DNA from: Pseudoselenomonas ruminantium
GTDB taxonomy: Bacteria; Bacillota; Negativicutes; Selenomonadales; Selenomonadaceae
Length of the DNA stretch: 64,000 nucleotides
Assembly: GCA_015058655.1 (NCBI GenBank)
Contig: SVBX01000012.1
Span: 1 to 64,000, forward strand
Reading direction: 5' to 3'
Shown here: piece after piece, positions 48,927-51,994 of the stretch
Numbering within the stretch: the stretch's first letter is position 1
Layout of the letters: every line of letters starts with the position of its first letter
Position numbers and translations under genes: made by a program
Notes under the pieces: model-generated
Told to the model about the DNA's origin: nothing
What the model saw: the letters and a program-made list of their open reading frames with translations, nothing else
The model's database searches: none

Positions 48927-50168
48927 TCAAGCCATGTTCAGATAAGCCTGCTGCTCAGGAGTCAGCTTGTCGATGCTGACCCCAAGGGACTTCAGCTTGA
49001 TTTCCGCGATGCGCTGGTTGATGGAGTCCGGCATGAGATGCACAGCCTTCTCCATCTCCTTGCCATGCTCCAAAAGGTGCAGGGCAGAGAAGAACTGCAC
49101 GCCGAAGGACAGATCCATGATCTCTGCCGGGTGACCGTCGCCTGCCGCCAGGTTCACCAGACGCCCCTCTGCCAGCAGGTAGAGCTTCCTGCCATCTTCC
49201 TGCAGGAATTCCTCGATGTTGTTCCTCACCTTGCGGCGGGATTTGGACATGGCCTCCAGTTCGGGAATGTTGATTTCCACATCGAAGTGGCCGGAGTTGG
49301 CCATCATAGCCCCGTCCTTCATGACCTTGAAGTGACGGTCGCGGATCACATCCTTGTCACCAGTGAGGGTAAGGAATATGTCTCCCTCTTTGGCAGCCTC
49401 ATCCATGGTCATAACACGGAAACCATCAAAGACTGCCTCGATGGCCTTGATGGGGTCAACCTCGGTGATGATGACATTGGCGCCCAGTCCCCGGGCTCGC
49501 ATGGCGCCGCCCTTGCCGCACCAGCCATAGCCTGCAATGACCACGGTCTTGCCTGCAATAACCAGATTGGTGGTACGCATGATGCCATCCCAAGTGGACT
49601 GGCCCGTGCCGTAACGGTTATCGAAGAGGTACTTGCAGTAAGCATCATTGGCGGCAATCATGGGGAATTCCAGCTTGCCCTGATCTGCCAGCGCCCTCAA
49701 CCTGTGCACACCTGTGGTGGTCTCCTCGGAGCCGCCGATAATGCCCGTCAAGAGTTCCCTGCGCTTGGTATGGAGCATATGCACCAAGTCGCCGCCATCG
49801 TCAATGACTATATCCGGCTTGATATCCAAAGCCCTGTTGATGAAGGTATCGTACTCTTCATCAGTGCAGCCATGCCAGGCAAAGACATTAACCCCGTCCT
49901 CTACCAGGGCAGCTGCCACATCGTCCTGGGTGGAAAGAGGATTGCTGCCGGTAAGAGCCACCTCAGCGCCTGCATGATGGAAGATTTCTGCCATATAGGC
50001 CGTCTTGGCCTCAAGGTGCAAGGTAATGACCATCTTTTTGCCAGCAAAGGGCTTGGACTTGGAAAATTCCTCGTCCACCGCCGCCATCACCGGCATGAAG
50101 TTCTTGACCCACTCAATCTTATCATGTCCAGACGGTGCCAGCCTAATGTCTCTTATCATTGATTCCAT
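48927..50168 (-). CDS. ahcY: S-adenosylhomocysteine hydrolase (short form; possibly S-inosylhomocysteine hydrolase)
   Basis: The 413-aa NAD-dependent enzyme has IRDIRLAPSGHDKIEWV, LTGSNPLSTQDDVAAAL, FAWHGCTDEEY, the Rossmann motif GYGWCGKG (near 217), SGHFDVEI and the NLAAGDGHP loop. It lacks the 40-residue insertion of the long bacterial/eukaryal enzyme, as do archaeal and thermophile forms. It hydrolyses SAH to adenosine plus homocysteine. Because it is cotranscribed with a SAH deaminase, its real substrate could be S-inosylhomocysteine, as found for the methanogen enzyme. AAGGAGG precedes ATG 50168. Confidence 0.93.
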   Translation of the reverse strand: MESMIRDIRLAPSGHDKIEWVKNFMPVMAAVDEEFSKSKPFAGKKMVITLHLEAKTAYMAEIFHHAGAEVALTGSNPLSTQDDVAAALVEDGVNVFAWHGCTDEEYDTFINRALDIKPDIVIDDGGDLVHMLHTKRRELLTGIIGGSEETTTGVHRLRALADQGKLEFPMIAANDAYCKYLFDNRYGTGQSTWDGIMRTTNLVIAGKTVVIAGYGWCGKGGAMRARGLGANVIITEVDPIKAIEAVFDGFRVMTMDEAAKEGDIFLTLTGDKDVIRDRHFKVMKDGAMMANSGHFDVEINIPELEAMSKSRRKVRNNIEEFLQEDGRKLYLLAEGRLVNLAAGDGHPAEIMDLSFGVQFFSALHLLEHGKEMEKAVHLMPDSINQRIAEIKLKSLGVSIDKLTPEQQAYLNMA

Positions 50169-50262
50169 GCTATTGCCCTCCTTCTAAAAGCTATGTTCTA
50201 TTCTAACACACAACCCCCGCCATGTCACCTGACCGAGGACTTCTTCTTATGTCGTTGTACTA

Positions 50263-50288
50263 AAAAAGCACCCACATAATGAGTGCTT
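50263..50288 (-). terminator. Terminator of the Panacea pair
   Basis: AAGCAC / GTGCTT (50266-50271 with 50283-50288) overlaps the stop of the last gene and is followed on the minus strand by TTTTTT. Confidence 0.75.
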
Positions 50289-50733
50289 ATCGTTTTACTG
50301 GGTATACTTCGTGATTTGGATCATACCAGAGGACATAGAAGTTGTCATCCAGTCTCAGTCCCACTATCCGCAGCATATTGGTGAACGCAAAGGAGAACAA
50401 GTCTCCAGCCATATCCTCTAAGTCAATTGCCTTCAGCCGGTCTCTCGCATCCTTAGACAGTCTCTCGACATTATCCAGATAATGGTGCTTGCTTTTTCCC
50501 CTGTCATGGGTCTGCTTGGATATATCAACCCATGTCATGCAGGAATACATCATCATCTTATCAAGGAAAAGTCCAGCCTTGAAGTCACTCCGGGATAAAT
50601 CAAAGGCAAACTTGCCGTTGCGATCAATCTTCTCAAAGCGGAAATGAGGCTTGCCACTAGCTACTTGCTGGAGCTGTACCTGCTTCCTTGCTTCCGACTT
50701 GGCAAGTTTTACTTGCTTGACTTTGCTCGCCAT
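50287..50733 (-). CDS. Unrecognised partner of the Panacea antitoxin (candidate toxin)
   Basis: The 148-aa protein has a Lys-rich N-terminal part (about 1-25), then RFEKIDRNGKFAFDLS, LFLDKMMMYS, a HDRGKSKHHYL segment and a well-ordered end LLRIVGLRLDDNFYVLWYDPNHEVYPV, read approximately. No named family was recognised with confidence. It is basic, as many nucleic-acid-targeting toxins are. The ATG overlaps the antitoxin stop by one base (TGATG) with GGGAG upstream, so the two are coupled. It is more AT-rich than the flanking housekeeping genes. Toxin status is inferred from the antitoxin neighbour. Confidence 0.65.
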   Translation of the reverse strand: MASKVKQVKLAKSEARKQVQLQQVASGKPHFRFEKIDRNGKFAFDLSRSDFKAGLFLDKMMMYSCMTWVDISKQTHDRGKSKHHYLDNVERLSKDARDRLKAIDLEDMAGDLFSFAFTNMLRIVGLRLDDNFYVLWYDPNHEVYPVKR

Positions 50734-51167
50734 CACAAGCTCCCGTAATACTCGCCCATTGCCGTCTTGGTTATGACATTTGAGCAGTAGTCAAAATCCC
50801 CAAGTCCCTTGCGCATATCCTTCCAAGGGGGCTCTGCGTGTGAAATTGCCCTAAGCTCATAAGGTTCCTTATCCCCATAATTGCTAAGGACAACATCTAT
50901 AGTCTCCTTCTCATCGGCAGACAATGCAGAAGGATCAGCCTTGGGAAGCAAACTCGCATCCACAGAAAACATTCCCTTATGCACATGGAAGAGTTCCGGA
51001 CACACAGGACCATTGCGCCATGCCTCGAAATCCTCATCAAACAGAGGCTCCCCAGTCCATGCCAAAGACCATGCCTGGGAATAATAGCACAGCTTCTGCA
51101 ATTTCCATGTGCTCATACTCCCTTGCTTTTCCAGAATATATTTTGCAACATCGAAAACCGTAGCCAT
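50733..51167 (-). CDS. Panacea-domain (DUF4065, SocA-like) antitoxin
   Basis: The 144-aa protein shows the DUF4065/Panacea pattern: VFDVAKYILEKQG, TWKLQKLCYYSQAWSL, PLFDEDFEAWRNGPVCPEL, and the C-terminal SHAEPPWKDMR. Panacea proteins are antitoxins that neutralise many unrelated toxins encoded next to them. ATG 51167 follows GGGAGGTG. A promoter is visible 30 bases upstream. It is first in the pair, before the candidate toxin, between ahcY and scpB. Confidence 0.85.
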   Translation of the reverse strand: MATVFDVAKYILEKQGSMSTWKLQKLCYYSQAWSLAWTGEPLFDEDFEAWRNGPVCPELFHVHKGMFSVDASLLPKADPSALSADEKETIDVVLSNYGDKEPYELRAISHAEPPWKDMRKGLGDFDYCSNVITKTAMGEYYGSL

Positions 51168-51199
51168 ACTTACACCTCCCTGCCCCACAAACTTTGTTC

Positions 51200-51228
51200 A
51201 TGTTATCACAAATAACTTTTGGTGACAA
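51200..51228 (-). promoter_or_regulatory. Promoter of the Panacea pair
   Basis: TTGTCA (51223-51228) and TAACAT (51200-51205) are separated by 17 bases on the minus strand, about 30 bases before the antitoxin start. Confidence 0.6.
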
Positions 51229-51349
51229 TACCACTATACTACATTATCGGTCGAGTCTCCTTCCTGCTTAAATAATTTTTTGCAAGACCCCTGCACCAGC
51301 CGAAGCCATGCCCTATCATTCCGCAAGCTTGAACATTTCCCCCGCCGTG

Positions 51350-51994
51350 TCACGGCAGGGGACTATTATCGCTATCGTTTTCTTTCATTTCAACTATTTC
51401 ATCGTCTTCTTCGCCCTCGCCCATGCCTTCAAGTTCGCCTAAAAGTTCCAGCTGCTCATCATCCATGCCAACGGCAGCTTCCCTGTCGCTGGGCAGGTTG
51501 GGCAAATCCTCCAGGGAATCCAGTCCGAAGGTACGCAAGAAGGTATCAGTGGTGCCATAGAGGATTGGCCTTCCCAAAACCTGCTTGCGGCCCACCTCGG
51601 AGATAAGTTCCAGCTCTATAAGCTTGCTGAGGGCTCTCTCTATGCGAACCCCTCGGATGTGCTCTATCTCCTGCTTGGTAATTGGCTGCTTGAAGGCAAT
51701 GATGGAGAGGGTTTCCATGGTGGGAGCAGAAAGCTTCCTGTCAACCACCTGCGAAAGCCGCTCCACGACAGGGTAAAGTTCCGGCCTGGTGGCAAGCTGC
51801 AGACCTCCTGCCACCCGCCTGATGGTAAGGCCGCTATGGCGCTCATCCAGCTCTTTCTGCAAGCGGGTCGTAAGATTCTGCACCGTCAGGAGGTCAGCAT
51901 GAAGGATGTCCGCCAAATCCTCCATGCTCATGGGGTCTCCTGCAGCAAACATCACCGCCTCCAGCGCAGCCGTTGTCGGCAATCCTTCATTCAT
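51350..51994 (-). CDS. scpB: Segregation and condensation protein B
   Basis: The 214-aa protein has two winged-helix domains. The first contains LEAVMFAAGDPMS and the second has LSIIAFKQPITKQEIEHIRGV and LYGTTDTFLRTFGL. The tail is acidic (EGEEDDEIVEM). It binds ScpA and SMC to form bacterial condensin. GGAGGAGG precedes ATG 51994, and the gene overlaps the end of scpA. Confidence 0.96.
   Translation of the reverse strand: MNEGLPTTAALEAVMFAAGDPMSMEDLADILHADLLTVQNLTTRLQKELDERHSGLTIRRVAGGLQLATRPELYPVVERLSQVVDRKLSAPTMETLSIIAFKQPITKQEIEHIRGVRIERALSKLIELELISEVGRKQVLGRPILYGTTDTFLRTFGLDSLEDLPNLPSDREAAVGMDDEQLELLGELEGMGEGEEDDEIVEMKENDSDNSPLP

Follow-up and report, generated by a model that had tools for sequence, protein, structure and literature searches.

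PanAT toxin–antitoxin systems are mobile two-gene operons with overlapping genes, found in prophages and chromosomes, in which an antitoxin carrying a Panacea domain with a GPV motif comes first (PMC8832971; PMC10440598). Kurata et al. 2022 predicted 88 clusters of the toxin, PanT, including MqsR-, ParE- and PemK-like proteins and 41 clusters without a recognised domain, and nine Panacea pairs have been validated as toxin–antitoxins (PMC8832971). Stand-alone Panacea domains are able to neutralise directly (PMC10440598). Here we analysed a two-gene cassette in a 64,000-nucleotide stretch of DNA from Pseudoselenomonas ruminantium (contig SVBX01000012.1, positions 1 to 64,000), hereafter the window (Table 1). 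Judged from its Panacea domain, GPV motif, gene order and overlap, the cassette is of the PanAT kind; it is almost certainly a Panacea-type toxin–antitoxin pair, with the toxicity of the second protein (the partner) being predicted. It differs from the described systems in that the searches made placed the partner in no Pfam family, Pfam toxin families included, and matched it to no validated PanT. New here are a fold proposal for the partner, a family signature, a clean empty site and a domain common to the partner and the Menshen protein NsnC.

Table 1. Features of the cassette and its flanks, in positions of the window
Feature	Position	Strand	Description	Basis
ahcY	48927–50168		AdoHcyase	Pfam
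Left direct repeat	50214–50228		CCCCCGCCATGTCAC, 15 bp, apparent target duplication
Inserted cassette	50229–51338		About 1.1 kb, missing in four congeners	blastn and junction comparison with L063–L066
Intrinsic terminator	50266–50288	-	AAGCACTCATTATGTGGGTGCTT + TTTTTA; overlaps partner stop codon
panT-like partner	50287–50733	-	148 aa, pI 9.5; ATG from 50733, stop ends 50287; predicted RelE/HigB-superfamily toxin	Model, alignment
CGGGAG	50740–50745	-	Ribosome-binding-like, within panA 3′ end, 6 nt 5′ of partner ATG	Sequence
panA	50733–51167	-	144 aa, pI 4.8; ATG at 51167, stop TGA 50735–50733; stand-alone Panacea (SocA_Panacea/DUF4065) antitoxin	Pfam, PHROG, alignment
Ribosome-binding site of panA	51173–51180	-	GGGAGGTG	Sequence
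Candidate promoter	51200–51228	-	TTGTCA-N17-TAACAT, TG before -10	Consensus scan only, 9/12
Right direct repeat	51339–51353		CCCCCGCCGTGTCAC, 15 bp, 14/15 identical to left copy; part of target hairpin downstream of scpB
Target hairpin	51340–51360	-	CCCTGCCGTGACACGGCGGGG, whole on scpB side
scpB	51350–51994		SMC_ScpB	Pfam

The earlier note had described a DUF4065/Panacea gene followed by a basic, AT-richer partner overlapping it by one base, the two forming a self-contained cassette between ahcY and scpB, and each part of this description held. PanA matches Pfam SocA_Panacea (PF13274) at 1.2e-21 (78.1 bits, cut-off 25.7) and PHROG 1281 at 2.7e-40. Its GPV motif (G53-P54-V55) is invariant across 12 aligned PanA sequences, and the protein has neither an N-terminal HTH nor any other added domain. 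The panA stop and the partner start share one base in a TGATG junction, and the 148-residue partner has a pI of 9.52. The GC content is 45.9% for the partner and 47.6% for panA (~46% for the pair), against 55.2% for ahcY and 54.9% for scpB; Pfam confirmed the neighbours as AdoHcyase, SMC_ScpB and SMC_ScpA. The cassette carries its own ribosome-binding sites, a strong terminator (10-bp stem and T tract) directly 3′ of the partner, and a promoter-like element 5′ of panA, whose 9/12 consensus match is weak evidence. SocAB, the type VI system of Caulobacter, likewise has a Panacea-type antitoxin. By sequence score the cassette is not SocAB, as PanA reaches 47.3 bits in the NCBIfam SocA model, under the equivalog cut-off of 190; a SocB-type match was not reported for the partner.

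The cassette is an insertion. Homology between the window and four same-genus genomes (L063–L066) breaks at 50228 and picks up again at 51339, and in these genomes ahcY and scpB are contiguous, with nothing but the hairpin CCCCCGCCGTGTCACGGCAGGGGG, or a close variant of it, between them. The 15 bases at 50214–50228 recur at 51339–51353 with one mismatch, in the manner of a target-site duplication. The pair, and the partner by itself, were absent from all five congeners searched, and fixation in all relatives, which the earlier note would have counted against its reading, is thus not the case. No second copy of the cassette was found in the host genome, and no recombinase gene lies within the 1.1 kb. 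The best reading is of a naked ~1.1-kb cassette, horizontally acquired and recently inserted, that entered the hairpin separating scpB from ahcY; as a single clean event with a 15-bp target repeat, it offers a neat case for how naked toxin–antitoxin cassettes move. The insertion target itself is the hairpin downstream of scpB (51340–51360). We rejected a REP-like or otherwise repeated target site, as the hairpin is single copy in the genome save one match elsewhere with two mismatches.

We searched whole genomes at the family, class and phylum levels, Corynebacterium, a Rhizobium plasmid, phages and viral contigs for homologues of the partner. Besides other Bacillota and Corynebacterium, the carriers include the Rhizobium plasmid and phages, Salmonella phage Emek among them; on viral contigs, an alignment-based scan gave 21 contigs with a homologue and a single-sequence scan gave none. 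After duplicates were removed, 49 distinct loci with a partner ORF remained. At 47 of these, a Panacea gene lies immediately upstream on the same strand, and in 46 of the 47 both listed ORFs are at most 120 bp apart, the remaining locus (L011) holding a partner fragment only. The TGATG junction recurs at several homologous loci, and many sit amid phage structural or lysis genes. The pairing of PanA and partner is old and strict; the recurrence of the two-gene order at 47/49 loci makes it more than chance. One of the two loci without an upstream panA (L052) is on a contig that starts inside or at the partner gene. At the other (L036, 1480–3110), an RRXRR/HNH (IscB-like) gene stands directly upstream of the partner homologue, where it has perhaps replaced the antitoxin. 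A further match, L039, was discarded as false, having no partner ORF.

The earlier note had found no family it could name for the partner. This stands for Pfam, and fails for three other matches. PHROG 8366 aligns over almost the full length of the partner (5.2e-11) and is matched by all 13 of the first members; NCBIfam MAG6450, which provides a name only, hits the C-terminal core of 36/37 members (best 1.3e-24), the window partner itself scoring 21.3 bits against a cut-off of 40; and the C-terminal part of NsnC is matched as well. PHROG 8366 and MAG6450 are both families without known function. The partner does not belong to a known housekeeping family, the other outcome that the earlier note had set against its reading. 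Given that 41 of the 88 PanT clusters lack a domain, the partner family may already stand, unrecognised, in the list of Kurata et al. Positions R122, G125, F132, W136, D138 and H141 are invariant or nearly so, giving the family signature RLxGxR...FxVxWxDPxH; H84 is kept in just 27/37 members. The Salmonella phage Emek homologue (L013, 2501–2917) is the sole one of the 37 without equivalents of R122 and H141 and may be an inactive toxin. A match to Pfam CMAS and a PDB cyclopropane synthase was set aside as weak and confined to one member.

Structure prediction linked the partner to described toxins. An AlphaFold2 model of the window partner (34-sequence alignment, pLDDT 87) has a basic disordered N-terminus of 28 residues and a confident core, and the PDB structures ranked 1–19 against it are all RelE-superfamily toxins, the nearest being HigB, YoeB, HP0894, RelJK, RelE and YafQ. 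For a second model, of a member 26% identical (pLDDT 85), ranks 1–15 are again all RelE-superfamily toxins, with YafQ, ParE2, RelE and YoeB among them; the alignments behind both models contain the same 34 sequences, and the models are not fully independent. Each Foldseek match is weak, with a best E of 0.14, none passing E 0.001, and TM normalised to the target of up to about 0.57. Comparison by hhalign with local HigB and RelE/ParE alignments, built from relatives, gave scores not above column-shuffled controls (15.5 against HigB; shuffled mean 11.4, maximum 22), and we therefore rejected sequence-profile proof of RelE kinship; a viral structure library gave no meaningful match to the partner model. 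With profile comparison not significant and single matches weak, the assignment rests on the agreement of the two fold searches, by which the partner appears to be a highly diverged RelE/HigB/YoeB/YafQ fold. The predicted fold would share with the RelE/HigB/YoeB/YafQ/ParE superfamily two N-terminal helices, a C-terminal antiparallel three-strand hairpin sheet and conserved polar residues after the last strand. The partner differs in length (148 residues against about 90), in the disordered basic N-terminus and extra helices, in having no detectable sequence similarity, and in its antitoxin, which is Panacea instead of RelB, HigA, YefM or DinJ. The suggestion in the earlier note of a less-studied toxin type thus holds insofar as the partner is unannotated; the fold points to a classical superfamily and not to a wholly new type.

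We consider it somewhat more likely than not that the cassette is a type II PanAT module gained by horizontal transfer, and that its toxin, a far-diverged member of the RelE superfamily, probably cleaves RNA via R122, D138 and H141. These residues, kept in 36/37, 37/37 and 36/37 members, form a polar set at matching strand ends of the model and are probably the active site, by analogy of position: they would lie where HigB and YafQ keep their catalytic residues. Translation of the shared mRNA would yield the acidic Panacea protein first, with that of the basic partner coupled to it. PanA would bind the partner directly, as in the validated PanAT pairs (PMC8832971), and hold it inactive; upon loss or titration of PanA, the freed partner would arrest growth. 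Given the RelE/HigB/YoeB/YafQ-like predicted fold, RNA cleavage is the most likely mechanism, with the partner cutting mRNA or other RNA, perhaps at the ribosome, by means of Arg122 in the penultimate strand and Asp138/His141 immediately after the last strand. The module moves in prophages and on a plasmid.

Some of the same evidence would fit a genuine PanAT pair whose RelE-like toxin is no RNase, being either aimed elsewhere, as ParE is at gyrase, or non-catalytic. The RelE superfamily takes in the gyrase-poisoning ParE, the fold searches also matched ParE structures, ParE2 included, and the catalytic set R122/D138/H141 is only putative; yet the most conserved residues are a polar Arg-Asp-His set beside the last strand, which suits an RNA-cleaving relative better, and ParE is not known to have such a set. 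We regard this reading as unlikely, and still the most credible of the alternatives. A little less credible is that the RelE likeness is spurious, the product of a small alpha/beta domain, so that the partner would be a toxin of separate fold with an undefined target, SocB-type binding of the sliding clamp included. The fold E-values, every one above 0.1, and the hhalign result would agree with this, as would SocA, an antitoxin of the same superfamily that counters the replication-inhibiting toxin SocB (PMC8832971). A generic small fold, however, would not be expected to place one superfamily exclusively at the top for two distant members, with leading matches that differ by model (HigB and YoeB for one, YafQ and ParE for the other).

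Further from our preferred reading, we think it improbable that the pair is no toxin–antitoxin at all and instead works as a phage or defence accessory of two subunits, with the Panacea protein as sensor or tether and the partner as an effector or adaptor that is not toxic. Many members do lie on prophages and viral contigs, and 33/37 match the C-terminal part of NsnC from Menshen (best 3.8e-13). Against this stand the strict pairing of overlapping genes and the placing of the antitoxin first, typical of toxin–antitoxin modules, and the Panacea pairs that have been tested, which often act as such (PMC8832971).

The NsnC match places positions 183–280 of the 284-residue protein (PADLOC) on partner residues 32–143. 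The partner has no counterpart to the N-terminal two thirds of that protein, and NsnC belongs to a three-gene system (NsnABC), whereas here housekeeping genes, ahcY and scpB/scpA, flank the pair; full-length NsnC with NsnA and NsnB does not occur at the locus. With a single NsnC domain matched and housekeeping genes around it, the cassette is not Menshen. Tentatively, and with the balance tipped against it, the partner could be a widespread RelE-derived domain, carrying the signature above, that Panacea pairs share with the NsnC C-terminus, one hidden toxin module serving both addiction and phage defence. The NsnC link, if true, would hand Menshen a candidate toxic domain. A family of 'unknown function' gains a predicted fold that can be tested, a likely active site and a setting among mobile elements. 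By this example, some of the many Panacea partners that lack annotation may be classical toxins that have diverged, and not new folds.

Several loci show further variation of the module. One single-contig genome of the family holds two copies (L032, 590–2019; L021, 1432–2864) that are 97.8% identical over 1.4 kb; each has an amidase gene as a neighbour, which points to a pair of related prophage lysis regions. At two loci (L028, 309–651; L011, 1621–1791) an intact panA is followed by a partner that looks frameshifted or truncated, the pattern expected upon toxin loss with the antitoxin remaining. Four loci (L030, 1447–1944; L031, 1165–1659; L038, 1429–1875; L040, 1465–2211) form a more distant second branch with the signature HGRxHGF...FYxVWLDPxH, likewise behind Panacea genes; the L040 partner has a C-terminal extension bearing Cys pairs.
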